In this document: positions 7,905 through 33,964 of the stretch, piece after piece
Numbering within the stretch: position 1 is the first letter of the stretch
Layout: the number at the start of each line of letters is the position of its first letter
NCBI GenBank assembly: GCA_944385125.1
Contig: CALWVZ010000018.1
Span: 1-34,090 of the forward strand
Direction of reading: 5' to 3'
Source: an uncultured Oscillospiraceae bacterium
GTDB taxonomy: Bacteria > Bacillota > Clostridia > Oscillospirales > Oscillospiraceae
DNA: 34,090 nucleotides
Notes under the pieces: generated by a model
Database searches by the model: none
What the model was told of the DNA's origin: nothing
The model's input: the letters and a program-made list of their open reading frames with translations, nothing else
Position numbers and translations under genes: made by a program

Positions 7905-7932
7905 ATTATATACCCTTTCCCATATATTTCAA
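7905..7932 (-). promoter_or_regulatory. pgi promoter
   Basis: On the minus strand TTGAAA (7927-7932), a 16-base spacer and TATAAT (7905-7910), about 70 bases before the pgi start. Confidence 0.75.
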
Positions 7933-7947
7933 CAAAAATTTCACATT

Positions 7948-16052: not shown

Positions 16053-17594
16053 CTATTCGAATTCTATGGTGGCGGGGGGCTTGGAGGTCACGTCATAGAG
16101 GACCCGGTTTACGCCCCGCACCTCGTTTACTATGCGCACGGAGATGCGGTCCAGCACCTCGTAGGGGATGCGGGCCCAGTCAGCGGTCATGAAGTCCGAG
16201 GTCTCCACCGCCCGCAGGGCTATGGCATAGTCGTAGCTGCGGCCGTCCCCCATGACCCCTACGGAGCGCATATTGGTGAGAGCGGCAAAGTACTGGCTGA
16301 GCATGGGCTCCAGGCCCGCCCGGGCTATCTCCTGGCGGAAGATGAAGTCGGCGTCCCGCAGCATGTCCAGCTTTTCCTTTGTTATCTCGCCTATAATGCG
16401 TATTCCCAGACCGGGGCCCGGGAAGGGCTGGCGCATCACCAGATACTCCGGCAGGCCCAGCTCCCGGCCCAGCTGGCGCACCTCGTCCTTGAAGAGCATG
16501 CGCAGAGGCTCGATTATCTCCTTGAAGTCCACGAAGTCCGGCAGGCCGCCCACATTGTGGTGGCTCTTTATCACCGCCGCCTCGCCCTTGCCGGACTCGA
16601 TGACGTCGGGGTATATGGTGCCCTGGACCAGGTAGTCCACAGAGCCTATCTTCTTGCCCTCCTGCTCAAAGACCCGGATGAACTCCTCCCCGATTATCTT
16701 CCGCTTCTGCTCCGGTTCGGTGACCCCCGCCAGAGCCTTCAGGAAGCGCTGTTCCTCGCTGCAGCGGACAAAGTTTATATCCCAGCGGGAGAAGGCCTGC
16801 TCCACCTCGTCCCCCTCGTCCTTGCGCATCAGGCCGTGGTCCACGAACACGCAGGTGAGCTGGCTGCCCACCGCCTCCGCCAGCAGAGCCGCTGCCACGG
16901 AGGAGTCCACTCCCCCGGAGAGGGCCAGCAGCACCTTGCCGCCGCCCACCTTGGAGCGGATGCTCTCAATGGCCCGGCGCTTATAGTCGGCCATGGTCCA
17001 GTCTCCCCGGGCATGGCAGATATTGTACAGGAAGTTGCGCAGCATCTGGCTGCCGTACTGGGTGTGGTTCACCTCCGGGTGGAACTGCACTCCGTAGAAG
17101 CGGCGCTTCTCATCGCAGATGCCCACGGTGGGGCAGGCCTTGGAATGGGCCACCAGCCTGAAGCCCTGGGGCACCTTGGCCATATAGTCCCCATGGCTCA
17201 TCCATGTTATGCTCTCCTGGGGCAGGTCCCTGAAAAGGGTGCAGGAGGTATCAAACCAGGTGGAGGTCTTGCCGTACTCCCGGGCGGAATCGTCCTGGGC
17301 TGCGGTGACCAGGCCGCCCAGCTCGTGGCTCAGCAGCTGGCAGCCATAGCATATGCCCAGGATGGGCACCCCCAGCTCATATATGCCCTTGGCAGGGTGG
17401 GGAGAGCTCTCCGCATACACGCTGTTGGGGCCGCCGGTGAAGATGATGCCTATGGGGTCAAAGGCCTTTATCTCCTCCAGGCTCATGTCATGGGGCTTTA
17501 CCTCACAGTAGACATTGCATTCCCTTACCCGGCGGGCTATAAGCTGGTTGTACTGGCCGCCGAAGTCCAGTATAAGTATCTTTTGATTGTCCAT
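16053..17594 (-). CDS. guaA: GMP synthase (glutamine-hydrolysing), full length
   Basis: Converts XMP to GMP with glutamine and ATP. 513 residues with all three parts. The class I glutamine amidotransferase has nucleophile C82 in [11 protein letters not shown] and the FHPEVNH His/Glu pair (about 172-178). The ATP-pyrophosphatase P-loop is [16 protein letters not shown] (about 223-238). The C-terminal dimerisation domain ends KPPATIEFE. It lies 42 bases after the second leucine-rich-repeat gene, without a clear promoter of its own, so it is probably the last gene of that operon. A second, amidotransferase-less paralogue lies at 28309. No purine riboswitch was recognised upstream. Confidence 0.97.
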
Positions 17595-20856: not shown

Positions 20857-20965
20857 CCCGGCCGTGCTGCCGGTTTTGCGTTTTTCTTTCGCTCCTCTCA
20901 TGAAACTGCCGGGGCGGTCAAGCACTCCTGGGGCCTGCCTTGATTACCGCAGAGCAAGATGGGGC

Positions 20966-21001
20966 GGGGCGGTCAATGGCGCACATAAAGTTGGCCGCCC
21001 C
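20966..21001. repeat. GC-rich hairpin repeat (GGGGCGGTCAA arms)
   Basis: GGGGCGGTCAA (20966-20976) pairs with TTGGCCGCCCC (20991-21001) with one G-T. The same 11 bases occur at 20911-20921, and a related GGGGCGG hairpin lies at 1103. There is no T-run. It could be a REP-like or old terminator element. Confidence 0.4.
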
Positions 21002-21255
21002 GGCCGGGATTCCTGCATTTAATGGTGAAGATAATTTCTAAAAATATCTATTATTTTAGAAAAGGATGTGGTAAAATTTTTTCAAGCAAAGCTGAATGTT
21101 AAAGTTGGTTCGATTTTAGCTAAGGGAGAAGTAATACCCTTTTATATTGTCACCCAAGATGAATTGCGGTAAAAATGTGATCCCGCTTGGGTGGCATAAG
21201 GTTTTCTTCCTTTTCAGGTTTTGTTTTGCGGCAATCGGTGCTTGCGTTTTTCGGC

Positions 21256-21277
21256 GTGTGCAGCTTCGGTTGCACAC
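21256..21277 (+). promoter_or_regulatory. attenuator-like hairpin in the lipoprotein gene leader
   Basis: GTGTGCA and TGCACAC form a perfect 7-base stem around an 8-base GCTTCGGT loop, followed after three bases by TTTTT. This is an intrinsic-terminator shape placed 26 bases before the start codon, between leader and ribosome site, so it could act as an attenuator. A short reading frame precedes it (from 21147) but is not convincing as a gene. Confidence 0.5.
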
Positions 21278-21303
21278 ACATTTTTATTCGGGAGGGAAAG
21301 AGA

Positions 21304-21951
21304 ATGAAAAGGCTTTTAGCACTATGTCTTATTTTGGTTATGCTGATGCCGCTGACTGCCTGCGGCAGCGGAGACACTCAGCCCCAGACAGGCAGCGATT
21401 CGGGCAATCAGCAGCAGGAGCAGGCTCCCGAAACGGGCGATGAAAACGGGAGAAGCAAAGCTACGGAGTTTACATTTGAGCTGGCTGCGGAGGAAGAGCG
21501 GATTGTTGAAAACCTCATATTTGATGAGGATGTAACGATCAGCGGGGATTTTGGAATTATCACTTTTGACAACTGCGAATTTAACGGTGATATTATCAAT
21601 ACCGCAGAACAGTTTACCAGAGTGATTCTTCCTGATGGGACGAGCGTAAAGGGTAATTGCGTGTTCAAAAACACCGTCAAAGAAGCAAGCATGGACTATC
21701 CTATGCCTAAATTTATCAGTCCTAACACACTGAACATCGTATGTGAGGACTGCATTGGTTCATGTATCCTGGAAAATACCGAAAACAGCATTACATTCAA
21801 CGGAGAGACCTGCTCCATGGCCGACGTGGAATTCTTTTACGATGCCGGTACAAATGAGCTCGTTCCTTATGAGGGACAGGAGGCCTCTGTGCTCTTTGTT
21901 GGCCAATGGTGGGAAAACGGAGAAAAGCTGCTGCAAATATTTTGCGAATGA
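21304..21951 (+). CDS. putative lipoprotein, unknown function
   Basis: 215 residues that I do not recognise. The signal MKRLLALCLILVMLMPLTAC is a textbook lipoprotein leader, with lipid attachment at C20. A Ser/Gly/Gln-rich linker (21-48) follows, then a domain whose short alternating stretches (ISGDFGIITFDNCEFNGDI, later ILENTENSITFNGETC) suggest a small right-handed beta-helix or similar all-beta fold. The start has GGGAGGGAAAG just upstream. Its base composition is lower in GC than the backbone genes and it lies at the edge of the accessory region, so it may have been acquired. It has its own leader hairpin and a strong hairpin downstream (22026). Function is unknown. Confidence 0.8.
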   Translation: MKRLLALCLILVMLMPLTACGSGDTQPQTGSDSGNQQQEQAPETGDENGRSKATEFTFELAAEEERIVENLIFDEDVTISGDFGIITFDNCEFNGDIINTAEQFTRVILPDGTSVKGNCVFKNTVKEASMDYPMPKFISPNTLNIVCEDCIGSCILENTENSITFNGETCSMADVEFFYDAGTNELVPYEGQEASVLFVGQWWENGEKLLQIFCE

Positions 21952-22025
21952 TCGGGAAACAGGATAATACACCTCACAAGGCGGGGGGTTGCACCTAAAA
22001 GCCTTACGATTGTATAGACATCCAA

Positions 22026-22061
22026 AAGTGCGAAGATACCGTTCGGAGTATCTTCGCACTT
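22026..22061. terminator. long perfect hairpin after the lipoprotein gene
   Basis: A perfect 14-base stem (AAGTGCGAAGATAC with GTATCTTCGCACTT) around an 8-base loop, 75 bases after the lipoprotein stop. Only a weak T-tract follows, so it is either a terminator or an mRNA-stabilising hairpin. Confidence 0.6.
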
Positions 22062-22099
22062 GCTTTAACGTAATAATATTAGCCAAGTTTACTTTTTAC

Positions 22100-22130
22100 C
22101 GCCCTGCCGAATTTGTCGTTCAGCAGGGCG
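22100..22130 (+). terminator. terminator hairpin beside the left repeat
   Basis: CGCCCTGC pairs with GCAGGGCG, extended inward past a single mismatch by GAA/TTC; CTTTT follows on the plus strand. Confidence 0.6.
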
Positions 22131-22152
22131 CTTTTGCAAGCTTTTGGCACTT

Positions 22153-22162
22153 ATTCCCACTC
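22153..22162. repeat. candidate left attachment site (guaA-type core)
   Basis: ATTCCCACTC, identical and in the same orientation to 28311-28320, which is the 3' end of the guaA-like gene at 28309. Read with the two bases to its left it gives, on the minus strand, GAGTGGGAATAA: the final Glu-Trp-Glu codons and a stop. This is what an undisturbed guaA end would look like if the island were removed. Ten bases alone could match by chance. Confidence 0.5.
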
Positions 22163-22304
22163 GTTGCCGAAAGCCGCAACTTAACGCTTTTTGTTTATAA
22201 TTCATGTGATGTAGTTTTCGTATTATCCTGATAATCCATATTATACTGCCTGTACGACGAGAATTTATCAATATCTTATCAGGTGCGATAAAATTAATAT
22301 TTTG

Positions 22305-23297
22305 CTAACCAAGTATATCTGCCTTGATTTGCTCAACAAGACTTTTTAAAATAGAGTATAGTTCCTTTTTTGTTGTTATATAATCCTTTTTAAATGCCTT
22401 CATAGTCAAACCTTTTAGAACATCCGCTTCATCTAGCTCACTTTCATCAATGTACTGTCCAAGGCCATAGTGAGCAATGCAATTTCTAAATTGTCGATTA
22501 TACAAACAATCATCTAACCTATACTTCGTGCCCAAATTACTGTTCAAATCATTTAAAAAATCGCAAAGATAATAATACTGTAGATACGCATACTTGAATT
22601 TCTGCGGTATTTCCTCTATAAAATAATTTTCAATAAACTCAATAACATAGTTAATGCTGCAAAGTATTGAAAACAAAAGGAATCCTGTGCCATTATTCAT
22701 TTTTAAAGGAGACTTCTTATACAAGTGATAGTCCTTGTAGCTCACCGTAAGACTGTCATTATATTTGTAAACTGGCAAATCGGCACAACCCAAATATGCA
22801 GCCAATTTTCCAACGATAATACTAATGCTCTTAATCCAAGGACCAGCACCATCGTTACCCAAAGTCTTTATGGGAATATACATCGAACAAAGTACAGTGT
22901 TGCCGCAATATTCCCCACAACACAGATCCGTTCCTACATTATAGTATCCCAATATTTTCTCGCGGAGTCTTCTTATGCTATAAAAATAATCATCACTTTC
23001 TGTAAGTTTACCTAACAATACCTCTCTATATTCGACATAAGATTTTTCAAACAACTTGTGGCTTTGACGAAGTTGCGCATAATATATTTTTTCTGTTGGA
23101 TTAAATGCAGGCGCATTTAATCCAATTTTTTTACACCATTGTTCTGCCCCATCTGCAAACAATCCTATGTATGGAAGACTCATACAAATATAGTTACTAT
23201 CAATGTTTTTTGCATTACGCATAATATCGGTTAGCGCATATAAAAATCTTGCATCTTCTCTTATTAAATCGAATGCGGCTTGCTGCACTTTATTCAA
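22305..23297 (-). CDS. HEPN-motif protein, putative defence ribonuclease/toxin
   Basis: 330 residues, mostly helical, with no family I can name. Near the C-terminus (271-276) it carries RNCIAH in the context NRQFRNCIAHYGLG. This matches the R-x4-H signature of HEPN domains, with the polar residue after the Arg typical of HEPN ribonucleases. The start is TTG 23297, with AAGGAGAG five bases upstream and no better codon nearby. It is divergent from a controller-like HTH gene, with an 86-base shared promoter region, and lies against the left repeat of the probable island. Base composition is AT-rich, unlike the backbone. Toxin or RNase activity is inferred from one motif and the context; the first 250 residues are unassigned. 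Confidence 0.6.
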   Translation of the reverse strand: MNKVQQAAFDLIREDARFLYALTDIMRNAKNIDSNYICMSLPYIGLFADGAEQWCKKIGLNAPAFNPTEKIYYAQLRQSHKLFEKSYVEYREVLLGKLTESDDYFYSIRRLREKILGYYNVGTDLCCGEYCGNTVLCSMYIPIKTLGNDGAGPWIKSISIIVGKLAAYLGCADLPVYKYNDSLTVSYKDYHLYKKSPLKMNNGTGFLLFSILCSINYVIEFIENYFIEEIPQKFKYAYLQYYYLCDFLNDLNSNLGTKYRLDDCLYNRQFRNCIAHYGLGQYIDESELDEADVLKGLTMKAFKKDYITTKKELYSILKSLVEQIKADILG

Positions 23298-23332
23298 CGC
23301 TACTCTCCTTCAGCAGATACTTATTGTATGTA

Positions 23333-23342
23333 GACTTATAGT
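23333..23342 (+). promoter_or_regulatory. C-box-like half-site between HEPN and HTH genes
   Basis: GACTTATAGT lies 42-51 bases before the HTH gene start. From memory it matches the GACTTATAGTC half of operators bound by restriction-modification controller proteins. A second half is only loosely present (CATTATGAT, 23352-23360). Confidence 0.4.
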
Positions 23343-23383
23343 ATTCATTTTCATTATGATATAAAATTAGGAGGATTGCAACT

Positions 23384-23590
23384 ATGGATATTATAAAAGT
23401 CTTTGGAGACAATTTAAAAAAATATCGCACTGCAATGGGCATATCCCAAGAAGCATTTGCCGATAAATGTGGTATGCACCGCACATATATCAGTGCGATC
23501 GAATGTTATCGCAGAAGTATCTCCTTAGAGAACATTCAACGCATCGCTGATGCTCTTGAAATTGAGACATATAAACTGTTTATCCCTTAA
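23384..23590 (+). CDS. small HTH (XRE) protein resembling R-M controller proteins
   Basis: A 68-residue, single-domain helix-turn-helix protein. The HTH is MGISQEAFADKCGMHRTYISAIE (19-41), followed by SISLENIQRIADALEIETYKLF. The pattern HRTYIS-x-IE then ISL-x-N-x2-xIA-x-AL-x-I is that of controller (C) proteins of type II restriction systems, though the usual Gly and Asn after IE are replaced by Tyr and Ser (IECYRRS). Start ATG 23384 has AGGAGG eight bases upstream. It is divergent from the HEPN-motif gene and points toward the endonuclease gene, from which it is separated by an IS110-family element. It could control the R gene, the HEPN gene or both. A phage-type repressor is the alternative. 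Confidence 0.8.
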   Translation: MDIIKVFGDNLKKYRTAMGISQEAFADKCGMHRTYISAIECYRRSISLENIQRIADALEIETYKLFIP

Positions 23591-23611
23591 TTATCGAAAA
23601 GGAGAATAAGG

Positions 23612-23671
23612 TTGAAACATTGTAATTTAAGTACCATTCCAAAAAAGGGCGCACAAAATCAAGCTCCCTAA
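23612..23671 (+). pseudogene. 5' stub of a gene cut off near the IS110 element
   Basis: AAAGGAG (23598-23604) is followed seven bases later by TTG AAA CAT TGT, giving about 19 codons (KHCNLSTIPKKGAQNQAP) before a stop. It begins 21 bases after the HTH gene stop, as the next gene of an operon would. The stop falls where the IS110 element is likely to begin. Probably the start of a gene whose remainder was separated; possibly chance. Confidence 0.35.
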
Positions 23672-23703
23672 AAGCGAGCTAAAAAACAAGAAATGCTTGA
23701 AGT

Positions 23704-24948
23704 CTAAGATGCTGGTGGAGCAGTCACTAAGTACCCTTGCCGTTGTAGGATGAAGACGGCTTCTTCCACAGAAACCTCACGGTGTGCAGGTGGCCGGTCG
23801 CCCTTTCGGTAGAGTTCAGGGTTGTACGGTTCGTTCTTCTTGAGCATATTGTAGATAGCCGTAAGGAGCATTCTGGCAATGGCAATAATGGCTTTCTTGT
23901 GCCCTCGGCGCTTTTTGAGAGCCAGGTAGCGATTACGGACTTCCGGGAACTGCTTGGTACGAATGGCACAGAGGGCACACTGAACAAGCAGTGGCTTGAT
24001 GTAAGCACCGGCCCGGCTGATTCTGGTGGTTTTCTTCTTTCCAGCACTTTCGTTGTTCTGTGGCGTAAGACCAGCCCAAGAGCAGAGATGCTTCGAGGTG
24101 GGGAACACGGACATATCCACTCCGATCTCAGAAATGATGCCAACAGCGGCAAAGGATTGGATACCCGGCGCCGTCATAACAAGGTAAAGTTGGGGAAGGT
24201 ATTTCTCAGCAGTTGTCAGAATCAACGATTCCAGATTGAGCTTGCATAATTCAAGGCTGTCCATGTGGGAACGGATGATGCGGAGCTTTTCAGCCTGTTC
24301 TTCACACATCACCCCGTCCACAGCAGCGAGGATTTCCTCGTCAGTCGCTTTCATGTGCTTGGTTCGGAAGCCAGAAACATCCGTAATTTTCTCCATTGGA
24401 TTTTCCAGAATACGGGCAGTGATTGCGGAGGCTGCCTTGCCGAACACATCCGAGAACACATCGTCCAGTTTGAAATTGGAGACCGTCAGACAGTTTTGCG
24501 CCCGGTTTTTCTCGCCGGTAGTAAAGTTGGTGAGTTTCCAGCAGTAACGTACCAAATCCCGTAGTTGGCGAATATCCGCAGGAGGGATAAAACTCCCGGC
24601 GACAAGGTCGTGCTTGAAGATGTCTGCGATCCACTTGGCATCTCGCTTGTCTGTCTTTTTCCCCCGAATGGCTTTCACATACTTGGGGTGGGCAAGAACA
24701 ATATTGCAGGTGGGCTCCAGAATGTTGTAAATGGGAATCCAATACTTTCCGGTGGATTCCATGCACACATCCTTGCAGTTGTTTTCAGCCAGCCAGGCAG
24801 CACAGCGGCGTAAATCTCCGGTGAAGGTGGAGAACCGTTTGCTTTTGTAAGTTGTCACTCCCTGCTCATTCGTAGAAGCGATACAGGCAACAACAAAGGA
24901 CTTGTGAACGTCCATTCCACAGCAGACACTGTAAACGATTTTAAGCAT
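23704..24948 (-). CDS. IS110-family transposase (DEDD/RuvC-like, RNA-guided type)
   Basis: 414 residues. The N-terminal DEDD_Tnp_IS110 domain opens with the first acidic residue in [17 protein letters not shown] (about 9-25) and includes [21 protein letters not shown] (about 90-110). The C-terminal Transposase_20 domain has [19 protein letters not shown] (about 257-275) and [22 protein letters not shown] (about 291-312), which holds the conserved serine. IS110 recombinases use a bridge RNA made from the element's non-coding end to pair donor and target. I use ATG 24948, seven bases after AAGGGA; the frame is open to a TTG at 24963. The gene is full length with no frameshift, so the element may be active. 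Confidence 0.95.
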
Positions 24949-24971
24949 AACACGTCCCTTCAAAACAGTAT

Positions 24972-25164
24972 TTGAGGAGAACAGACATTGACTGGACGCT
25001 CACTGAAAGATTGAAGTAGTCCGTCTCTCCAAAGATAAGGTTACAGGGTTCAAAGCCCTACTCATTGGTGCTTGAAAGAGCGTCCGGCACACATATACAT
25101 TCAGTCCGGCACATGGCTGGGCCTACTCACCTTCACGTGCTGTGTAGTGTGCCTGCCTCCTCAA
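24972..25164 (-). ncRNA. candidate IS110 bridge RNA
   Basis: A 193-base stretch just upstream of the transposase gene that folds into nested stems. The outer stem is TTGAGGAG (24972-24979) with CTCCTCAA (25157-25164). Inside it are two abutting arms: GGACGCTC/GAGCGTCC (24994-25001 with 25078-25085) and GGCACAC/GTGTGCC (25086-25092 with 25147-25153). The first arm contains a further hairpin, AGGG...CCCT (25045-25059). All listed repeats are perfect. Size and place fit bridge RNAs of IS110 elements, which are about 180 nt, encoded between the left end and the recombinase start, with two guide loops. The strand is set by the transposase. The guide sequences were not assigned. Confidence 0.6.
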
Positions 25165-25260
25165 GCATATTCTAACAAATTACGTTTTGCTGTGTTAGAG
25201 GCTCCTGGGTTTCATCCCCTTTGGTGCCTTGCAGCGCAGCGGAAAGGAATGGTCATATAT

Positions 25261-26256
25261 ATGGCACAAATACCTACAAGTAAAGCCCACGGTAAACAAA
25301 TCGAAGCTGGTACAGCCGGGAGAAATAAGGGCCATAGATTTGAATGGCTACTGACCGCTGAGATAAATAAATTGAACGGAACCGTTTTCTCTCCTACTCA
25401 CAACGAATCTCATTTATTACAAGGAAACCCCGCATATAATTTGCTTCAATACATTTCGAACAACAGAAATATTGTGATCGAGTCAGTCCAGGCTTCTTGG
25501 CTTGGCGGTCTTGCTACATCTGGATTAGGCGATGCTATTACTGATGACGACGGTAATCCCATAACTAAAAGCAAATCAGATGTCTTGATCAAAATTAAAG
25601 CTCAAAATAAAACCGAAACAATCGGAATTTCTGTCAAAACCTGCAACAAAAAGAATCCGACAAACGACCAAATGTTTTTTACTACAGCGAAAGCGTTTTG
25701 CCAGCTACTAATCGACAACGGAATTAGCGTAAACGAAGTAGCAACTACGGGACTTTCAATGTTTTGCGGCGATGTCGGATATAGACCAATCGACCGTATG
25801 AGTGAAGATGAACTAAAAACACGAATTTCCGACCCCAATAGATATTATTGGGAGGAAACATCTCAAGAGTCCCAAAATACTTGGAGAGATATTATTTCTA
25901 CAAATCAAGATAGAATTTCTCTCTTATTATTTCAGAAAGCTTATAAAGATGACCCATTCCCTCCCGAATACCTTTTACATCAAACAGTAAAATACACCAA
26001 CTTCGAAGATTGCGAAACTGCTGTATTCTCAATGAACGAAATAATTACTCTGTCAAAAATGCATTCTGGATTTATTTTGTCGAAATACTTTATCCATAAA
26101 GGTACATATAAAAACGACAAGAATCCACATCTTGCACCAAGATTTGGGTTCATCCAGTTCCAACGAGGCGGTCAAAAGCAACATCCAACTCAGTTGCAGT
26201 TTAATTTGAAGTCAGGATATTTCTATATTTTGAAAGACTACTTTGACAGAACTTGA
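25261..26256 (+). CDS. putative type II restriction endonuclease
   Basis: 331 residues, AT-rich. The N-terminus has TSKAHGKQIEAGTAGRNKGHRFEWLL (6-31), a layout I associate with restriction enzymes. The likely nuclease core is a PD-(D/E)xK variant, D107 in SKSDVLIKIK and S124-V-K126 in IGISVKTCN. A Ser in place of the Glu occurs in Cfr10I/Bse634I-type enzymes, where another Glu supplies the charge; E28 is a candidate. ATG 25261 is preceded by GGAAAGGA; ATG 25249 is possible but too close to it, and the frame continues upstream into the IS110 region without meaning. It is convergent with the C5-methyltransferase gene, overlapping by 19 bases, which is the main support for the R role. The recognition site is unknown. 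Confidence 0.72.
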   Translation: MAQIPTSKAHGKQIEAGTAGRNKGHRFEWLLTAEINKLNGTVFSPTHNESHLLQGNPAYNLLQYISNNRNIVIESVQASWLGGLATSGLGDAITDDDGNPITKSKSDVLIKIKAQNKTETIGISVKTCNKKNPTNDQMFFTTAKAFCQLLIDNGISVNEVATTGLSMFCGDVGYRPIDRMSEDELKTRISDPNRYYWEETSQESQNTWRDIISTNQDRISLLLFQKAYKDDPFPPEYLLHQTVKYTNFEDCETAVFSMNEIITLSKMHSGFILSKYFIHKGTYKNDKNPHLAPRFGFIQFQRGGQKQHPTQLQFNLKSGYFYILKDYFDRT

Positions 26257-27662
26257 CGTTTAATGCTTTCTGCAATTATTTCGGCAAAAATTGGGGGCAC
26301 TGCATTACCGATAGCCTTTCTAATATCTCCCCATTTACCTATAAATGCAAACTCATCAGGGAATGATTGCGCCCTTGCTGCCTCTCGTATCGTAAGAGAA
26401 CGAGTGGCAGTAGGGTGTACATTCCGACAACCCGAAATCATACTAAAGTTTGTAGTAATGGTAGAACACGGTTCATCCCATTTTATACGCTTATAAGTAG
26501 TATTAAATCCGCTTGGCGGTCTTAAATCTGGGTTTTCATTATCGTGTGCGCTACAGCCTTCTGGTACGTCTTTCAACCAGCGGATAACGTGTTCGGGATG
26601 AATGATGCTCCAATGAAGAGGGTCCGTAGACAATTCTCCAGATTCCAAGAAGTCCAAATCGACCGTTGCTTCTCTAAAAGAAATTTGCTTTTGAAAATTA
26701 AAAAGACTTGGCACATCAGTATCTGTTTGATAAGTTGCCATAGGAAAGTCAAAATCTTTATCAATATCATTTCGCACGCCAACAATTACCACTCGTTCTC
26801 TCGATTGAGGAACGCCATAATCAGCCATATTAATTTCTTTTTTTACTAAATGGTATCCTGCTTTTGAAAATGAATCAAAAATACAATCAATAAACAGCTT
26901 GCCATCAGATGTTTTCATTGATGTCAGAAGTCTTACATTTTCAAAAATAAATGCTTTAGGATAAACCAATGAAACTATATTTGAATAGTATTCGAATAAC
27001 TGATTTCTTATATCATCTGGGTCACGTTTTCCTGCCAAACTAAATCCTTGACAAGGCGGACCACCAATAACAACATCAATATCTCCAAATTCTTTTTTCC
27101 ATTCTTTAATTTGCTCATCTGTTATATTACAAATGTCAGTTCCAAGAAGCTTACTATTGACAAAATTAGAATCATATATTTTATTAGCTGATTCTTCAAT
27201 TTCAACGTGACCGACTAAGTCAAACCCAGCTGCCGCAAAACCTAACGATAAACCTCCACAACCCGAAAATAGAGCGATTGCTTTTGGGGCATTATGGGGC
27301 TTTGTATCCATCGCTCTCTTATATAGATTTGTTAAGATATCACGATAGGCACAATTTTGATGATGACAAGCTTTAAGTAATTTGTGATATTCATCGCTAC
27401 TTTTTATTACTTTAGGCAATCTTTTTTTTACAGCATTAGACTTTGTGATCCTTTTTTTTCGCACATCGCACAAACCACTATCTATATCACAAATCAAGGA
27501 AGATAATGCATTACTAACAACTTTAATATCCTTTAATGACGGGATTGCTTTTCCCAATTCCCAAGATGAAATTGTTGCTTTGCTGAAGCCACTGGCTTCG
27601 GCAATTTTTGTTTGACTTATATTATATTTTAAACGCTTTTCTCTAATTGCTGTGTACTCCAT
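26238..27662 (-). CDS. C5-cytosine DNA methyltransferase with N-terminal HTH
   Basis: 474 residues. Residues 5-55 form an XRE-type HTH (ISQTKIAEASGFSKATISSWELGKAIPS), then a basic linker, then a full m5C methyltransferase: motif I ALFSGCGGLSLGFAAAG (130-146), motif IV GGPPCQGFSLAG with catalytic C204, motif VI ENV (241-243), motif VIII QSRERVVIVG, a target-recognition region (about 320-400), motif IX REAARAQSFPDEF and motif X AIGNAVPP. In M.SsoII-type enzymes a similar N-terminal HTH represses the methyltransferase's own gene. ATG 27662 has GGGAG seven bases upstream. It lies 14 bases after a small HTH gene and is tail-to-tail with the putative endonuclease gene. It protects host DNA and may regulate the system. 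Confidence 0.95.
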   Translation of the reverse strand: MEYTAIREKRLKYNISQTKIAEASGFSKATISSWELGKAIPSLKDIKVVSNALSSLICDIDSGLCDVRKKRITKSNAVKKRLPKVIKSSDEYHKLLKACHHQNCAYRDILTNLYKRAMDTKPHNAPKAIALFSGCGGLSLGFAAAGFDLVGHVEIEESANKIYDSNFVNSKLLGTDICNITDEQIKEWKKEFGDIDVVIGGPPCQGFSLAGKRDPDDIRNQLFEYYSNIVSLVYPKAFIFENVRLLTSMKTSDGKLFIDCIFDSFSKAGYHLVKKEINMADYGVPQSRERVVIVGVRNDIDKDFDFPMATYQTDTDVPSLFNFQKQISFREATVDLDFLESGELSTDPLHWSIIHPEHVIRWLKDVPEGCSAHDNENPDLRPPSGFNTTYKRIKWDEPCSTITTNFSMISGCRNVHPTATRSLTIREAARAQSFPDEFAFIGKWGDIRKAIGNAVPPIFAEIIAESIKRQVLSK

Positions 27663-27676
27663 AATTTTCTCCCAAG

Positions 27677-27898
27677 TTATTGTTCATTGCAGGCATCGTT
27701 TGAGACGATTTCCATAATATCTTCAATGCGGCATTCTAGTGTCAAACATATTTTTTCTATTGGCTCAATTGATACCGGCTCATCTTTCCCGAGTTTTACT
27801 AAGACATTACTACTGATGCCACACAACTGTTTCAAATCGGTTCGTTTAAGCTTTTTATCTATTAGGAGTTTCCAAAGGTTATCATAACAAACAGCCAT
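27677..27898 (-). CDS. small Cro/C1-type HTH regulator (HTH_26-like)
   Basis: 73 residues: MAVCYDNLWKLLIDKKLKRTDLKQLCGISSNVLVKLGKDEPVSIEPIEKICLTLECRIEDIMEIV. This matches the short HTH_26 regulators common in integrative elements of Firmicutes, with recognition helix SSNVLVKLGKDEP and the 'I.kIC..L.C.i.DImE' end. ATG 27898 has GGAGG seven bases upstream. It is the first gene of a two-gene unit with the methyltransferase, so it may set its expression. Confidence 0.88.
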   Translation of the reverse strand: MAVCYDNLWKLLIDKKLKRTDLKQLCGISSNVLVKLGKDEPVSIEPIEKICLTLECRIEDIMEIVSNDACNEQ

Positions 27899-27990
27899 TT
27901 AAAGACCTCCACTATCTGATATTTGTAATTGTATACTTAAAATCATGATATATCAACTTATAATTACTTTTTCGTGATTTATAAACAAAT

Positions 27991-28032
27991 AAAAAAATGC
28001 CGAGTGTAACTCGTTTTCAGAGCTACACTCGG
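27991..28032 (-). terminator. rho-independent terminator after the tnpV remnant
   Basis: CCGAGTGTA (28000-28008) pairs perfectly with TACACTCGG (28024-28032), with CTC/GAG inside past one mismatch. On the minus strand seven T's follow almost at once (27991-27997). It ends the minus-strand tnpV remnant before the HTH-methyltransferase unit. Confidence 0.85.
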
Positions 28033-28039
28033 TATAATT

Positions 28040-28308
28040 TTATGCGTAGATCAAATCTGCATTCACAACTTCCGTTGCACGATTTCGGATACTGTTCATC
28101 CTCTGCACCCACAGCATTTGATTTTCAGCTTTGAGCTTTTCCGTTACATTTTCTTTTTTCGTCAGTTGTTCTGCCCAGCCGGGAAAACATTTCCTCTGCC
28201 TGTTCGTCAATATCAGCAAGGTGACTGTTCAGCTTGCAAGAAGTCAGCAGATTAGCGTAAAAGGCTCTTTTATATTGGTAGTGACCAGGCTTTTTCAGGC
28301 CTCTGAAA
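28040..28308 (-). pseudogene. tnpV: tnpV remnant (transposon-encoded protein), truncated and frameshifted
   Basis: Too broken to be an open frame. On the minus strand the first part reads GLKKPGHYQYKRAFYANLL, TSCKLNSHLADIDEQAEEMF and SRL. After a one-base insertion near 28174-28178 the next frame continues AEQLTKKENVTEKLKAENQ and MLWVQRMNSIRNRATEVVNA, ending DLIYA and TAA at 28040. Together these match, from memory, the C-terminal three quarters of TnpV, a small protein of Tn4451-like and other mobilizable elements in Clostridia, whose usual end is ...RNRA.EIVN.ELIYA. The N-terminal third is missing: the remnant stops exactly at the stop codon of the guaA-like gene, where the right repeat lies. 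Confidence 0.75.
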
Positions 28309-29289
28309 TCATTCCCACTCTATGGTGCCGGTGGGTTTTGTGGTCAGGTCGTAGAGCACACGGCACACGCCGGGGACCTCGGTGACGATACGCTTGGTCA
28401 CGGTATTGAGCACGGAGTAGGGCACTTCCTCCACGGTGGCGGTCATGGCGTCCAGGGTGTTCACCGCCCGGATGATGACGAACCACTCCTCCACCCGATG
28501 GTCCTCCTTCACGCCCACGGTCTTCATGTCCGGGATCGCAGTGAAGTACTGCCACACCTTGCCTGCAAGGCCGCTCTTTGCAAACTCCTCCCGGAGTATG
28601 GCGTCGGACTGGCGCACCGCCTCCAGCCTGTCCCGGGTGATGGCCCCCAGGCAGCGCACGCCCAGTCCCGGGCCGGGGAAGGGCTGACGGTACACCATAT
28701 TGTCCGGCAGGCCCAGAGCGGAGCCCACCACTCTCACTTCATCTTTAAACAGGAATTTCAGCGGCTCCACCAGCTCGAACTTCAGATCCTCCGGCAGGCC
28801 GCCCACATTGTGGTGGGCTTTCACAGGACCGCTTTCCAGTATATCCGGATATATGGTGCCCTGGGCCAGGAACTCTATGCCATCCAGCTTCCGGGCCTCC
28901 TCCTCGAACACCCGTATGAACTCGGCGCCGATTATCTTCCGCTTCTTCTCCGGCTCGGCCACTCCCGCCAGCTTGTCCAAAAAGCGGTCCACCGCGTCCA
29001 CATACACCAGGTTCGCATCCATCTGGTGGCGGAACACCTCTACCACCTGCTCCGGCTCCCCCTTGCGGAGAAGGCCGTGGTTCACATGCACGCAGGTCAG
29101 CTGCTTGCCCACCGCCTTGATGAGCAGTGCGGCCACCACCGAGGAGTCCACTCCGCCGGACAGGGCCAGCAGCACCTTCTTGTCCCCTATCTGGCGGCGC
29201 AGGGCTGCCAGCTGCTCGTCAATAAAGGCCCGGGCCAGCTCAGGGGTGGTGATCCTCTCCATGTTTTCCGGGCGCCGATTTTCTGCCAT
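28309..29289 (-). CDS. GMP synthase ATP-pyrophosphatase subunit-like paralogue (no amidotransferase domain)
   Basis: 326 residues covering only the second half of GMP synthase. After a 30-residue lead come the P-loop [16 protein letters not shown] (about 41-56), [35 protein letters not shown], the [12 protein letters not shown] loop and a complete dimerisation domain ending KPTGTIEWE. This is the layout of the archaeal GuaA B subunit, which takes ammonia from a separate partner. ATG 29289 has GGAGG eight bases upstream. It differs clearly from the full-length guaA at 16053, so it is an old paralogue and not a copy made by integration. Its last codons form the right repeat of the island. It may be cotranscribed with the GH13 gene, 68 bases upstream. 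Whether it makes GMP from ammonia is unknown. Confidence 0.9.
   Translation of the reverse strand: MAENRRPENMERITTPELARAFIDEQLAALRRQIGDKKVLLALSGGVDSSVVAALLIKAVGKQLTCVHVNHGLLRKGEPEQVVEVFRHQMDANLVYVDAVDRFLDKLAGVAEPEKKRKIIGAEFIRVFEEEARKLDGIEFLAQGTIYPDILESGPVKAHHNVGGLPEDLKFELVEPLKFLFKDEVRVVGSALGLPDNMVYRQPFPGPGLGVRCLGAITRDRLEAVRQSDAILREEFAKSGLAGKVWQYFTAIPDMKTVGVKEDHRVEEWFVIIRAVNTLDAMTATVEEVPYSVLNTVTKRIVTEVPGVCRVLYDLTTKPTGTIEWE
28311..28320. repeat. candidate right attachment site in guaA-like 3' end
   Basis: ATTCCCACTC covers the final Glu-Trp-Glu codons of the gene at 28309 (minus strand GAGTGGGAA, plus the T of the stop). The same ten bases lie at 22153. GuaA 3' ends with this core are known integration sites of genomic islands. 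The adjacent tnpV remnant begins exactly here. Confidence 0.55.
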
Positions 29290-29357
29290 ATGTCTTTCCT
29301 CCAAAATCTTTTGTCTTTTTTTCTTTCTCTGTTCTCTATAAACAAGACCTCAGGCGG

Positions 29358-30644
29358 TCATGTTTCCACTGTGATGATGATGGGCCGGCCTTCGCAGAAA
29401 AGCCTGCCGTCCTTTACCTTTACGGCGCTGCCGTCGATAAGGTTTAAATATTCCCCGTCGGCCAGTTCCAGGGCCACATCCCCGCTTTTTGACCTCAGGC
29501 TGAAGACACCCAGACTGCGCCGGCCGGCGCTCTGGCGCTCCATCAGGGCGATATCCGATCCGTCGTCGGCGGAGGCGGTAAAGCTGTCCCGGCAGCCCAG
29601 GCTCCCCTTTATCTCCCGGAGCCGGGAGAGTAGGCCGCTGAGGTCCCGGCCGGTGTTCCTGCTGAACACGTCCTTGTCAAAGAGGCTGGGCACATGGGTG
29701 TCGCAGAACTCCTGCCCGGCATATATAAGCGTGGTCCCCTTGAGAAAATACAGCATGGCGGTTAGGTTTATCAGGTCCTTTTCATCCGCCGCCTGGGAGG
29801 CTATCCGGGGCTGGTCGTGGTTTTCCAGAAAGCGCAGCTTATTGTAGTTTTCCGGGTACATGGCCTCCTGGAAATTCAGCATGTCCGTATAGGCGCTCAG
29901 CGGCAGCTTCCCCTGGAGATAGCGGTCGAAGCTCTCCCGGATGTCGTATTCATATTCCATATCGAAGGCGGCAAAGAGCTCCGTGTCCCGGGCGCAGTAC
30001 AGCCCCGCCCGCCTTGCCCAGCTGCCGAAGCTGAGGTGTACGCTCTCCGCCAGCCAGATGCAGCCGGGGCGGACCTTCTCCACCGCCGCCCTGGCCTCCA
30101 GCCAAAAGTCCACCGGCACGAAGGAGGCCACGTCGCAGCGAAAGCCGTCCACTATCCCGGCCCAGAAGCACAGGCTCTCTATCTGGTAGTCCCAGAGCTC
30201 CCGGTTACCGTAGTCCAGGTCGATGACGTCGGTCCAGTCCCCCACCCGATTGCCGGGGCTGCCGTCGGGCCGCTTATAAAACCACTCCGGGTGCTGCTCA
30301 TAGAGCAGGGAATCCGGCGAGGTATGGTTGTACACCACGTCTATGATGCACTTCATGTCCCGGCGGTGTATCTCCCCCACCAGGGCTTTGAAGTCTTCCA
30401 TAGAGCCGTATTCCGGGTTGACGCTGCGGTAGTCCCGGTTGGCATAGGGGCTGCCCAGGCTGCCCTTCCTGCCCTTGACCCCCAGCGGATGGATGGGCAT
30501 GAGCCAGATTATATCCGTACCCAAAGCCTTTATCCTGTCCAAATCCGGCACCAGGGCCCGGAAGCTGCCCTCCGGCGTATGGTTCCTCAGGTACACGGAA
30601 TATATCGCCTGGTTTCGGAGCTCAGTCTTCCTTTCAGCCGCCAT
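29358..30644 (-). CDS. GH13 alpha-amylase-family glycosidase
   Basis: A 428-residue cytosolic enzyme (no signal peptide) acting on alpha-glucosidic bonds of maltodextrins, sucrose or similar. The (beta/alpha)8 GH13 regions are present: IIDVVYNHTS (region I, 100-109), GFRCDVAS with nucleophile D171, WLAESV with acid/base E200, and FLENHDQPR with H276 and D277. A short C-terminal beta domain (about 350-428) follows. The length fits trehalose-hydrolase, oligo-glucosidase or amylase-like members; the specificity cannot be settled by eye. ATG 30644 has GGGGAG seven bases upstream, and an extended -10 promoter lies at 30686. The neighbours give no pathway hint. Confidence 0.9.
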   Translation of the reverse strand: MAAERKTELRNQAIYSVYLRNHTPEGSFRALVPDLDRIKALGTDIIWLMPIHPLGVKGRKGSLGSPYANRDYRSVNPEYGSMEDFKALVGEIHRRDMKCIIDVVYNHTSPDSLLYEQHPEWFYKRPDGSPGNRVGDWTDVIDLDYGNRELWDYQIESLCFWAGIVDGFRCDVASFVPVDFWLEARAAVEKVRPGCIWLAESVHLSFGSWARRAGLYCARDTELFAAFDMEYEYDIRESFDRYLQGKLPLSAYTDMLNFQEAMYPENYNKLRFLENHDQPRIASQAADEKDLINLTAMLYFLKGTTLIYAGQEFCDTHVPSLFDKDVFSRNTGRDLSGLLSRLREIKGSLGCRDSFTASADDGSDIALMERQSAGRRSLGVFSLRSKSGDVALELADGEYLNLIDGSAVKVKDGRLFCEGRPIIITVET

Positions 30645-30685
30645 GGTTCTCTCCCCGCTTTCCCATATTTTAGGCGCATCTACAT

Positions 30686-30712
30686 ATTATATCAAAACCG
30701 GGTATAAAGCAA
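30686..30712 (-). promoter_or_regulatory. possible promoter of the GH13 gene
   Basis: On the minus strand TATAAT (30686-30691), preceded by TG one base away (extended -10), with a poor -35 TTGCTT at 30707-30712 (15-base spacing). Confidence 0.45.
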
Positions 30713-30771
30713 TCGTTTTCCTCTGCCCGGGCCCCGGGTGTTTTTTACATAGATTTTACACAGAACTGATA

Positions 30772-30800
30772 TTGGATTTTATGGCCGCTGGCTATAGTAT
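30772..30800 (+). promoter_or_regulatory. possible promoter of the Na/Pi cotransporter gene
   Basis: TTGGAT (30772-30777), a 17-base spacer and TAGTAT (30795-30800), 37 bases before the start codon. No PHO-type boxes were recognised. Confidence 0.45.
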
Positions 30801-30837
30801 AGCTTGGTTCAATATGTAAGATACGGGAGAGAAAACC

Positions 30838-32601
30838 ATGGATATTTTCGACGTACTGAGTCTTATCGGGGGACTTTGCCTGTTCCTTTTCGGCATGAAT
30901 ATCATGGGCCAGGCCCTGGAGCGCAGGGCCGGCGGCAAGCTGCGTAGCCTCCTGGGCAAGCTCACCACCAACAAGATGGCCGGGCTGCTCACAGGCCTTG
31001 GCGTCACCGCCATAATCCAGAGCTCCTCCGCCACCACGGTGATGGTGGTGGGCTTTGTGAACTCCGGGCTCATGACCCTCAAACAGGCCATTAACGTCAT
31101 TATGGGCGCCAACATCGGCACCACCGTCACCGCCTGGATACTGAGCCTGGCAGGCATAGACAGCGGCAACCTCTTCGTCTCCCTTTTAAAGCCCAGCTCC
31201 TTTACCCCGGTGCTGGCCCTTATAGGTATAATCTTCTACATGTTCAGCAAAAAGTCCCGGAGGCAGGACACCGGCCTCATCCTCCTGGGCTTTGCCACGC
31301 TGATGTACGGCATGGACAGCATGTCCGCCGCCGTGTCCGGCCTGCGGGACGTGCCCGAGTTTCAGCAGATCATCCTCATGTTCCACAATCCCTTCCTGGG
31401 CGTGCTGGCCGGCGCAGTGCTCACCGCCATAATCCAGTCCAGCTCCGCCTCCGTGGGTATACTCCAGGCCCTGTCCTCCACCGGCCAGGTCACCATAGGA
31501 GCCACAATCCCCATCATCATGGGCCAGAACATCGGCACCTGCGTCACCGCCATGATCTCCTCCGTGGGCACCAACAAGAACGCCCGCCGGGCCGCCCTGG
31601 TACATCTGTCCTTCAACGTCATCGGCACCGCCGTGTGGCTCACGGTCTTCTGCATAGTCAAGGCCGTATTCGCCCCCGCCATCCTGGGGGAGAGCGCCTC
31701 CCTGGTGAGCATAGCCGTGGCCCACTCCGCCTTCAACATCCTCTGCACCATCCTGCTGCTGCCCATGACGGGGCTGCTGGAACGGCTTGTCCACCGCCTG
31801 ATCCCCGACGGGGCGGAGGCGGAGGTGCTCACCGAGATAGACGAGCGTCTCCTGGCCACGCCCCCCATGGCCCTGGAGCGCTGCCACGCAGTGGCCTCCG
31901 AGATGGCGGAGACCTCCGTCACCGCTTTGAAGGCCTCCCTCTCCTGCCTGCTGTTCTACACCCCCCAGCTTGCCGCCGGGGTCCGGGACAAGGAGGGCAA
32001 GAGCGACCATTATGAGGATATCCTCTCCTCCTACCTGGTGAAGCTCAGCAGCCTGCAGATAAGCGAGAGCGACAGCGCAGAGGCGGCTAAGCTGCTGAAG
32101 GTCATCGGTGACTTCGAGCGCATTTCCGATCATGCCGTGAACCTGGTGGAGTCCGCCGAGGAGATGCAGGAGAAAGACATCCAGTTCTCCGGCAGGGCCA
32201 GGGAAGAGCTGTCCGTTATCATCCCCGCCGTCAGCGAGATATTGGACATGACCCTGGAGGCCTTTAAAAAGGACGACGTGTCGGTGGCCCTCTCCGTGGA
32301 GCCCCTGGAACAGGTGATAGATTACCTGAAGGAAAAGCTGCGCACCGGCCATATACTCCGGCTCCAGCAGGGGGAGTGCTCCAGCGTTGCCGGCTTCATC
32401 TGGTCGGACATCCTCACAAACCTGGAGCGCACCGGCGACCACTGCTCCAACATTGCCGGCTGCATCATCGACATGTCCCACTACGAGATGCACCTCCACG
32501 AATCCCAGCGGGAGTTCAGGAACGCCAGCGAGGATTACCGCCAGAATTACCTGCGCTATATGCACAAGTATTCCCTGCCCGACCCCAAGGCCGGTAGCTG
32601 A
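30838..32601 (+). CDS. Na+/phosphate cotransporter family protein with PhoU-like C-terminus
   Basis: 587 residues. The N-terminal membrane part (1 to about 310) holds two inverted Na_Pi_cotrans repeats, each with the signature QSSSA: Q61-S-S-S64 in AIIQSSSATTVMVV and a second near 200 in AIIQSSSASVGIL. Each repeat also has an 'mGaNIGTtvTA' type segment (MGANIGTTVTA and MGQNIGTCVTA). The C-terminal 230 residues are helical, with FERISDHAVNLVESAEEM and LERTGDHCSNIAGCI, the metal-binding E-x3-D-H motifs of PhoU. Family members import or export phosphate with sodium. ATG 30838 has GGGAGAG upstream. It is followed by a terminator at 32626, so it is a single-gene unit. Confidence 0.94.
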   Translation: MDIFDVLSLIGGLCLFLFGMNIMGQALERRAGGKLRSLLGKLTTNKMAGLLTGLGVTAIIQSSSATTVMVVGFVNSGLMTLKQAINVIMGANIGTTVTAWILSLAGIDSGNLFVSLLKPSSFTPVLALIGIIFYMFSKKSRRQDTGLILLGFATLMYGMDSMSAAVSGLRDVPEFQQIILMFHNPFLGVLAGAVLTAIIQSSSASVGILQALSSTGQVTIGATIPIIMGQNIGTCVTAMISSVGTNKNARRAALVHLSFNVIGTAVWLTVFCIVKAVFAPAILGESASLVSIAVAHSAFNILCTILLLPMTGLLERLVHRLIPDGAEAEVLTEIDERLLATPPMALERCHAVASEMAETSVTALKASLSCLLFYTPQLAAGVRDKEGKSDHYEDILSSYLVKLSSLQISESDSAEAAKLLKVIGDFERISDHAVNLVESAEEMQEKDIQFSGRAREELSVIIPAVSEILDMTLEAFKKDDVSVALSVEPLEQVIDYLKEKLRTGHILRLQQGECSSVAGFIWSDILTNLERTGDHCSNIAGCIIDMSHYEMHLHESQREFRNASEDYRQNYLRYMHKYSLPDPKAGS

Positions 32602-32625
32602 GCTGTACACCTTTTCTCCCACGCC

Positions 32626-32660
32626 GCCGGGCATTTTGCAGAGCAAGATGCCCGGCTTTA
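32626..32660 (+). terminator. rho-independent terminator after the Na/Pi gene
   Basis: GCCGGGCAT (32626-32634) pairs with ATGCCCGGC (32648-32656), followed by TTTATTATTGTTTT. Confidence 0.85.
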
Positions 32661-32737
32661 TTATTGTTTTATTGCATTTTTCCCCTCCCGGCCTTATAAT
32701 TGTGGGCATTCAAAGGAATGTTTTCGGAGGTGCCGTC

Positions 32738-33895
32738 ATGGTACATCTGCTTCTGGCGCTTATATACCTGTCCTTCATAAGCCTGGGCCTGCCCGACGGG
32801 CTGCTGGGGGCCGCCTGGCCCAGCATGTACGGGGAGCTTTCCGCCCCGGTATCCGCCGCCGGCATGGTCTTCATCATAATCTCCGCCGGCACCGTGGCAT
32901 CCAGTCTTCTCAGCGAGCGACTGAATTTGAAGCTGGGGCCGGGGAAGGTCACGGCCATAAGTGTGGCCATGACCGCCGCCGCCCTTATGGGCTTTTCCTC
33001 CTGCTCCTCCCTGTGGCAGCTCTGTCTCTGGGCCATACCCTACGGCCTGGGGGCCGGCAGCGTGGACGCCTGCCTAAACAACTACGTGGCCCTCCACTAC
33101 GCCAGCCGCCACATGAGCTGGCTCCACTGCATGTGGGGCATAGGCGCCTCCGCCGGGCCTTACATAATGGGCGCAGTGCTCACCGCCGGGGGCCACTGGA
33201 GCCGGGGCTACCAGCTCATCGGCCTTATCCAGATAGTCCTCACCGCCGTGCTGCTGCTGAGCCTGCCTCTGTGGAAAAAGAGCGCATCCGATACCGAAAC
33301 GGAAAGCTGCGAGCCTTTAAGCCTGCGGCAGGTCTCCCGCATCCCCGGGGTGAAGGCCATGCTCCTCAGCTTCTTCTGCTACTGCGCCACCGAGCAGACC
33401 GTGGGGCTGTGGGCCGGCTCCTATCTGGTGCTCCACCGGGGCATGGCGCCGGAACTGGCCGCCTCCTTTGCCGGGCTGTTCTTTATGGGCATAGCCCTGG
33501 GTCGGGGTCTCAACGGCTTGCTCACCCTTAAATTCTCCGACACCCAGCTGACCCGGGCGGGTTTTGGCATCATCCTTCTGGGCACAGCCGCCGTGCTGCT
33601 GCCTTTAGGAGATACGGCCGCCCTCATCGGTCTTGGCCTCATCGGCCTGGGCTGCGCCCCCGTCTACCCCAGCATCATCCACGCCACCCCGGAGCGCTTC
33701 GGAGCGGAACGCTCCCAGGCGGTCATCGGGGTGCTCATGGCCAGCGCCTACCTGGGCAACTGCCTGATGCCGCCCCTCTTCGGCCTTATTGCCAACCACA
33801 TAAGCATCTCCCTGCTGCCCCTGTACCTGCTGCTGATATTGGCTGTAATGGCCTCCATGCATGAGACGGCCCTGAGAAAATGCGGGAAAGGATAA
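32738..33895 (+). CDS. MFS transporter
   Basis: A 385-residue polytopic membrane protein with about 11-12 hydrophobic segments and the Major Facilitator layout: LYLSFISLGLPDGLLGAAWP-type first helix, a short loop with SERLNLKLGPGK after helix 2, and a central charged loop (about 185-200) between the two six-helix halves. The N-terminal 'LGLPDGLLGA.WP' is seen in sugar/fucose-type and uncharacterised Firmicutes permeases. The substrate is not identifiable. ATG 32738 has GGAGG seven bases upstream; the open frame back to 32387 runs through the Na/Pi gene and its terminator and is not real. A terminator follows at 33909. Confidence 0.9.
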   Translation: MVHLLLALIYLSFISLGLPDGLLGAAWPSMYGELSAPVSAAGMVFIIISAGTVASSLLSERLNLKLGPGKVTAISVAMTAAALMGFSSCSSLWQLCLWAIPYGLGAGSVDACLNNYVALHYASRHMSWLHCMWGIGASAGPYIMGAVLTAGGHWSRGYQLIGLIQIVLTAVLLLSLPLWKKSASDTETESCEPLSLRQVSRIPGVKAMLLSFFCYCATEQTVGLWAGSYLVLHRGMAPELAASFAGLFFMGIALGRGLNGLLTLKFSDTQLTRAGFGIILLGTAAVLLPLGDTAALIGLGLIGLGCAPVYPSIIHATPERFGAERSQAVIGVLMASAYLGNCLMPPLFGLIANHISISLLPLYLLLILAVMASMHETALRKCGKG

Positions 33896-33908
33896 AAACG
33901 AAAAAGAA

Positions 33909-33945
33909 AAATCGTGCTGAGGAAATTCTCAGCACGATTTTTTAT
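33909..33945. terminator. bidirectional terminator after the MFS gene
   Basis: A perfect 13-base stem (AAATCGTGCTGAG with CTCAGCACGATTT) and a six-base loop, with A's before and T's after, lies between two convergent genes. Confidence 0.9.
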
Positions 33946-33964
33946 CGTCTCACGGGAGCTTCCG

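Follow-up and report, generated by a model that had tools for sequence, protein, structure and literature searches.

A probable decayed integrative mobilizable element with a restriction-modification module at the 3' end of a second GMP-synthase gene in an uncultured Oscillospiraceae bacterium

The window analysed here is a 34,090-nucleotide stretch of contig C18 from an uncultured Oscillospiraceae bacterium, the genome of which (2.0 Mb in 86 contigs) is 76% complete. It carries two GMP-synthase genes, the canonical guaA and guaA2, which is devoid of the amidotransferase domain. The 10-mer ATTCCCACTC is found at 22153-22162 and at 28311-28320 on the same strand, with no further copy in the window on either strand. 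The upper copy makes up the final codons of guaA2, the 3' end of which reads GAGTGGGAATGA and is the attachment gene end. Going down from guaA2, the interval between the copies carries a tnpV piece, the genes for a small helix-turn-helix (HTH) protein, a C5 methyltransferase (M), and a restriction endonuclease (R), an IS110 insertion sequence (IS), and the genes for a controller HTH protein (C) and for a protein with an Rx4H motif. We consider it probable that this interval is a decayed integrative mobilizable element (IME), now a cis-mobilizable element (CIME), at the guaA2 3' end. The features are listed below; genomes and loci of relatives are designated by G and L numbers.

16053-17594, minus strand: canonical guaA, without the core; 3' end GAATTCGAATAG (NCBIfam NF000848, 8.5e-230)
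22098-22147, minus strand: hairpin, probable remnant of an older second element (relatives' hairpins)
22153-22162, minus strand: distal attachment core (ATTCCCACTC occurrence search)
22163-22198, minus strand: distal element terminus, TAAACAAAAAGCGTTAAG...GCAAC, abutting the core (24/36 identical to the G039 element)
22305-23297, minus strand: 330-aa protein with Rx4H (HEPN-type) motif (RNC[IL]AH kept in a 71% identical relative)
23384-23590, plus strand: probable controller (C) protein of the restriction-modification (R-M) system (PADLOC Control_protein, 2e-20)
23609-25252, no strand assigned: IS110-family insertion between C and R; ends approximate, by eye (NCBIfam NF033542, 9.6e-68)
25261-26256, plus strand: type II restriction endonuclease (PADLOC REase_II, 2.5e-65; 88% identical relative in L206)
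26238-27662, minus strand: C5 cytosine methyltransferase with N-terminal HTH (Pfam PF00145, 6.5e-64; PF01381, 3.1e-11; PADLOC MTase_II, 1.1e-92)
27677-27898, minus strand: small HTH protein, HTH_26 (Pfam PF13443, 8.8e-17)
28043-28277, minus strand: tnpV remnant, C-terminal part (tblastn of the G012 TnpV; Pfam PF14198, 3.1e-15, for the second piece)
28280-28310, minus strand: about 30 bp similar to the end of the G003 element (alignment; the period-11 repeats that follow in G003 are missing here)
28309-29304, minus strand: guaA2, GMP-synthase ATPPase and C-terminal domains only (NCBIfam TIGR00884, 4.5e-132; Pfam PF00958, 9.7e-36)
28311-28320, minus strand: proximal attachment core, reading GAGTGGGAAT on the minus strand (identical core at the G012 and G039 elements)

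When the window was shuffled preserving dinucleotides (n = 100), ATTCCCACTC was obtained with a mean of 0.07 copies, and no shuffle reached two. The whole genome contains six copies, four of which are away from guaA and guaA2; by eye, one of these four is also a gene end. The interval has a GC content of 39.6% (36.0% without the IS110 element, which by itself has 49.2%), compared to 59-60% for the flanking DNA (1-20800 and 28321-34090). The element integrase profile gave no match in the window, and contig C18 has no PF00589 or PF00239 hit. A Pfam scan of the main open reading frames of the island revealed no relaxase.

The original prediction had described this region as an AT-rich genomic island, bounded by the direct repeat, without a tyrosine or serine integrase, and located at the amidotransferase-less paralogue. 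All of this agrees with our data, as do the R-M pair, the HTH regulators, the IS110 element, and the tnpV remnant, which have Pfam, PADLOC, or NCBIfam matches. A location of the island at the canonical guaA of the window was rejected, that gene having no core at its end. Two points hold in part. The Rx4H motif of the predicted HEPN protein was recovered, but the family label has this motif as its one basis. The interval as such is AT-rich, but DNA of lower GC content (46.5%) extends beyond the distal core, from 22152 to about 20.8 kb. This adjoining DNA contains a gene that looks lipoprotein-like by eye (21187-21951) and has weak matches only in relatives, mostly N-terminal. It also contains the hairpin at 22098-22147, which recurs behind guaA2 or a second core in G012, G085, G090, G094, and G105. 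Because the hairpin is about 90-140 bp behind these in the relatives but only about 5 bp from the distal core in the window, it is probably a leftover of an older, trimmed element just outside the island. Rfam and tRNA scans gave nothing.

The ends of the interval were compared to those of elements from other genomes. In a fixed register, the distal terminus of the window agrees with that of the G039 element at 24 of 36 positions and with that of G098 at 21 of 36 (none of 2000 shuffles was as good in either case); values are 20/36 for G112 (2/2000 shuffles) and 20/36 for L207 (1/2000). The pattern TAAAC...TTAAG is present in 6 of 10 distal ends (window, G039, G012, G021, G060, and L207), and CTAAAC...GTTAAA was recognized by eye in three further ones (that of G112 and both of G098). 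At the proximal end, the sequence beyond the core resembles G003 with an alignment score of 37 (mean 22 and maximum 39 in 300 shuffles). Beyond these approximately 30 bp, tnpV starts at residue 48 of 125. The remnant is distributed over two frames (residues 48-81 and 83-125) and shares its strand with guaA2, as does the tnpV of G012. The interval has no arm repeats, integrase, rep, or mob. The truncated, frameshifted tnpV and the missing arm repeats support the earlier description of the island as decayed. Similar tnpV pieces are found close behind guaA2 in G004 (at 74 nt) and G064 (at 3 nt); there was no integrase match in the sequence examined for these two genomes, which comprised 552 nt for G004.

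To place the locus in a wider context, 102 genomes of the genus, including that of the window, were considered. Matches of the guaA or guaA2 type were found in 96 of them (E ≤ 1e-60). The guaA2 genes analysed are among the matches listed, and DNA was read for a subset: 81 guaA2 3' ends, 72 of which have at least 130 nt downstream. Behind 34 of these 72, an 8-mer is repeated at exactly 11 nt (e.g., TTTGATAACAATTTGATAACA; at most one mismatch, 30-130 nt after the stop codon). These repeats presumably represent arm-type integrase sites. The same kind of repeat was detected at 5 of 44 canonical guaA genes (3/27 plus 2/17; Fisher p = 9e-5 against guaA2) and in 31 of 1440 dinucleotide shuffles. Two of the 34 (L132 and L150) look like chance occurrences, and one or two are predicted by the shuffles. 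The core is present at 57 guaA2 ends, 30 of which have arm repeats, compared to 1 of the 10 guaA ends with the core (p = 0.016); four of the 34 arm-repeat guaA2 ends have no core. That the core is the whole reason for the use of guaA2 was not borne out, as canonical guaA also ends in GAGTGGGA in 10 of 45 genus genes (4/27, and 6/18 by eye). Some canonical guaA genes also have elements behind them, for example that of G079, which has an integrase.

Two elements with the core at both ends look intact. The G012 element (10,429 bp between the cores) codes for an integrase, Mob_Pre, and TnpV in that order according to Pfam, with tnpV directly following mob. The G039 element (9,981 bp between the cores) has Pfam matches for an HTH protein, a tyrosine integrase, a NikA-like protein, AAA, and Mob_Pre. 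In G012, another integrase is encoded beyond the far core, and the far core of G039 is followed by what appears to be the end of another element; elements thus stack at guaA2. The integrase from G039 has 19 matches in 18 of the 102 genomes (E ≤ 1e-40). Thirteen of them follow guaA2, one follows a second core that adjoins guaA2, and one follows guaA, while the remaining four are on contigs with neither gene among the matches listed. In this genus, the 3' end of guaA2 is a hotspot of integration. The genome of the window, which is 76% complete, has no integrase of this family at the same threshold, and the earlier suggestion that the island might be moved in trans thus found no support.

At eight loci (L010, L039, L041, L138, L139, L155, L162, and L164), guaA2 is closely followed by a distinct type of element end that has a GCAGGC[AG]TTC hairpin. 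None of them has an integrase match, with four of the eight holding enough sequence to judge. For the GCAGGCATTC-hairpin ends the integrase count is 0/4, compared to 12/20 in the other two arm classes; some of these loci are from outside the genus, and the numbers are too small to support a claim.

In our interpretation, an element with a tyrosine integrase would have recombined at GAGTGGGAAT within the final codons of guaA2. The gene would have remained coding, with identical codons supplied by the element. A deletion that began about 30 bp inward of the proximal core and ended midway through tnpV would then have removed the arm-type sites, the integrase, rep, and the relaxase gene. The two cores, the terminus at the distal end, and the cargo would have remained. 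The cargo consists of a type II module with C-R-M-HTH arrangement and the Rx4H protein. A copy of IS110 would subsequently have inserted between C and R. We infer this order of events, a single deletion, a defence function of the cargo, and the present immobility, the latter because the proximal arm repeats are gone. The loss of these repeats would also speak against cis-mobilization by accretion with an integrative conjugative element (ICE) or IME. A CIME is described, in the available excerpts of two publications (PMC5704250, PMC7563491), as an element that has lost integration and transfer genes but has kept attL and attR. The interval corresponds to this: both att cores and the distal terminus are kept, with the proximal arm repeats missing, and the genes for integration and transfer are lost. 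Its origin by deletion is reflected in the 3' part of tnpV, which follows the proximal core with the order and strand that it has in an element. That this is a genomic island at the 3' end of a guaA-type gene, as originally predicted, is supported by the elements of relatives, which have the same core and a terminus matched by that of the window.

The cargo can be compared to relatives elsewhere. MTase_II, REase_II, and Control_protein (PADLOC) are clustered, and a gene set for a C-regulated type II system is thus present, with IS110 splitting C from R. The endonuclease has no match in Pfam, NCBIfam, or PDB. A pattern scan of a collection of species genomes retrieved relatives at five loci, which are 65-88% identical. 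In two of these, L206 (metagenome-assembled genome (MAG) of Roseburia, 88%) and L207 (goat-colon Clostridia MAG, 80%), C is the gene immediately before R, with a gap of about 20 bp, which places the IS110 of the window in the C-R junction. Between the window and these two loci, R and M are 80-88% identical, and the C protein is 93% identical in L206. The C-R-M-HTH order is uninterrupted in both; IS110 between C and R is confined to the window. Its transposase is encoded at 23704-24963 on the minus strand. By eye, the ribosome-binding stretch of R was left on the C side, and IS sequence now precedes R; the insertion may affect restriction. The small HTH gene, which is directly upstream of the methyltransferase gene in the window, adjoins M in L207 and is in pieces in L206, where the module is located away from guaA2.

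The 330-aa protein has RNCIAH as its Rx4H motif, and its relative has RNCLAH. HEPN ribonucleases are characterized by an Rx4-6H motif, and the protein may be a ribonuclease. It has no match in Pfam, PADLOC, NCBIfam, PHROGs, or PDB, and no plasmid match. An AlphaFold model, computed from an alignment of only two sequences, has a mean pLDDT (predicted local distance difference test) of 35.5, which is too poor to call a HEPN fold. The protein was found in 3 of 295 genomes of the order, its own genome counted. At L215 (9164-10156, in G193), a relative is found alone between apparent metabolic genes, as if it were moving by itself.

In L207, the module is also found behind a guaA2 gene, with 6.5 kb to a distal core-like site (2834-9334). 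The GC content of this island is 37%, compared to 49-51% outside. Proximal arm repeats (GTGGCAACGATTTGGCAACA) are present and the distal site has the same kind of terminus, but there is no match to the integrase profile. Genes for GajA and GajB homologues (Gabija) adjoin the R-M genes, where the window has the Rx4H gene instead. Among the relatives searched, none has the R-M genes at this position in an interval that ends far from the repeats; the ends of L207 are similar to those of the window.

Several observations weigh against a decayed element. The comparison to an empty site that the original prediction had called for did not succeed: none from the same species was found when it was sought via the lower flank in the genus. 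That flank (20926-22162) has only matches of 32-83 bp, in 11 of the 101 other genus genomes. G016 is free of the island and has the order guaA2, transporter-type operon (by eye), leucine-rich repeat (LRR) genes, guaA, but the first 60 bp or so behind its guaA2 resemble, by eye, the end of another element. A search for the methyltransferase in the 101 other genomes of the genus gave no match (E ≤ 1e-60). With gaps allowed, the local comparison of the distal end to G039 is weaker, as 6 of 1000 shuffles reach its score. The distal end of G013 is without the terminus pattern, and the pattern was written after some of the ends had been inspected. The proximal likeness to G003 is modest, at least 1 of 300 shuffles having scored higher. 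Each of the two L207 cores differs from GAGTGGGAAT at one base (the common part is TGGGAATAA), and 0.6 matches as good as the distal one are expected by chance on that strand; the distal boundary of L207 therefore rests mainly on the terminus. The operon of G016 (L038, 10477-16082; by eye ABC, nucleoside or sugar) is not part of the window interval.

A second perfect core within the DNA fetched was detected at 7 of 81 guaA2 loci of the genus. Among these seven core-bounded intervals, only that of G012 has an integrase. For the other six (window, G013, G021, G060, G098, and G112), the integrase profile gave no match, and their contigs have no PF00589 hit. The count of complete intervals is biased to short elements, as long ones leave the contigs or the fetched DNA. 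Defence-type genes are found in three of the five other genus intervals. That of G112, which keeps its arm repeats, codes for a YhcG/DUF1016 nuclease, an AAA protein, and an McrBC-type protein. G098 has a YhcG/DUF1016 nuclease in its second interval and, among others, an AAA ATPase in its long first one, and G060 has AbiEii, a KwaB-like fragment, and a YitT-type membrane protein. G013 carries a DUF6273 protein; in G021, acetyltransferases and a peptidase were recognized by eye only.

Short intervals with core or core-like ends behind guaA2 and without an integrase match were also seen at L138 (1062-5340), L153 (10330-11940), L132 (1010-4960), and L207 (2834-9334). Across these four, the cargo comprises McrBC-like genes, YhcG/DUF1016, AbiEii, or R-M plus Gabija-like genes.

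A broader scheme, which we offer tentatively and regard as unlikely, is that guaA2 serves as a dedicated docking gene that spares guaA, with a pool of integrase-less cassettes being inserted in tandem by the integrases of resident elements acting in trans. Many cassettes would then bring one or two defence systems, similar to an array of cassettes at one site. The intervals of the window (R-M and Rx4H protein), L207 (R-M and Gabija homologues), G112 (YhcG/DUF1016 nuclease and McrBC-like protein), G098 (YhcG/DUF1016 nuclease alone, second interval), and G060 (AbiEii and KwaB-like fragment) would be examples. The probability that we assign to a decayed element is unaffected by the weakness of the argument for a docking gene and by that of the L207 cores, because it rests on neither.

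Applied to the window itself, the interval would be a non-autonomous cassette that can still move, served in trans by integrases of guaA or guaA2 elements, and the lack of an integrase would be its normal state. The six of seven intervals without this integrase family are in line with it, as are the arm repeats of G112 and those of L207. In the window, however, the proximal arm repeats are missing and only a broken piece of tnpV is left, and no such integrase was found in the genome, which is 76% complete; the interval count, moreover, favours short elements. We thus regard this explanation as improbable for the window, and a decayed IME remains our preferred reading.

The second 10-mer might alternatively be a chance occurrence, with the genes having gathered beside guaA2 by ordinary recombination and transposition. 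A repeat of 10 bp is short and six copies exist in the genome, but the shuffles give 0.07 copies, and the distal copy abuts a terminus common to four other elements in a fixed register. Once this terminus had been matched, chance was disfavoured, and we judge it very improbable. An assembly error that fused an island contig to the guaA2 region is hardly credible: the assembly is fragmented, and in 25 of 81 genus guaA2 loci the contig extends less than 1 kb behind the gene, but G016 has the LRR/guaA and guaA2/amylase genes in the same order on one contig, and the ends are as expected of a real insertion.

That guaA2 itself belongs to the cargo is disfavoured, as an amylase gene adjoins it in several members of the genus (LRR genes in others). 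In G037 (L052, 13213-15744), guaA and guaA2 are a tandem pair with matches about 28 bp apart, which suggests that guaA2 arose by duplication. The guaA2-like genes at L054 (17873-19159) and L082 (18003-19283), from other families, are preceded by a stretch that matches only part of the guaA amidotransferase domain, and may represent an intermediate.

Should the integrase-less intervals still undergo exchange in trans, they would provide a simple and testable route by which anti-phage systems are swapped in these bacteria. Such genes could be harvested between two short repeats at one gene end, that of the second GMP-synthase copy. The intact-looking relatives at the same gene end illustrate how a mobilizable element can shrink to its attachment sites and probable defence cargo.

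Integration at guaA is known, as far as the excerpts available of the publications cited here go. IMEs and ICEs are found in guaA of streptococci and other bacteria (PMC5357655, PMC4701971, PMC5704250, PMC12479173), and guaA is the target of ATE-1, an IncP island, and GIsul2 (PMC5704250). Use of guaA2 as a target, or a series of integrase-less defence intervals there, was not found in the partly accessible and mostly open-access literature. GIsul2 integrates at the guaA 3' end with the site 5'-GAGTGGGA-3' (PMC9376610), so that gene end and site match the window; in the portions available, GIsul2-type elements have their own tyrosine integrase and are located in guaA, whereas no integrase was found in the window and its guaA is without the core. 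Classical streptococcal CIMEs are described in the same excerpts as having 1.2-13 kb, with cargo kept, and as forming tandems with other elements at the 3' end of a gene (PMC5704250, PMC7563491). As in the window, both att sites are kept and genes for recombination and transfer were lost by deletion. The window differs in that it is from other bacteria, has the amidotransferase-less guaA paralogue as target, and carries a type II R-M system with controller and the Rx4H protein. The closest counterparts are the G012 and G039 elements, which share the core, the type of distal terminus (closest in G039), and the tnpV strand (G012); compared to these, the window is without int, rep, mob, and the proximal arm repeats, and has a different cargo. 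The kind of element is thus already known; the notable part is its target, guaA2, and the run of integrase-less intervals found there, several of which carry defence genes.

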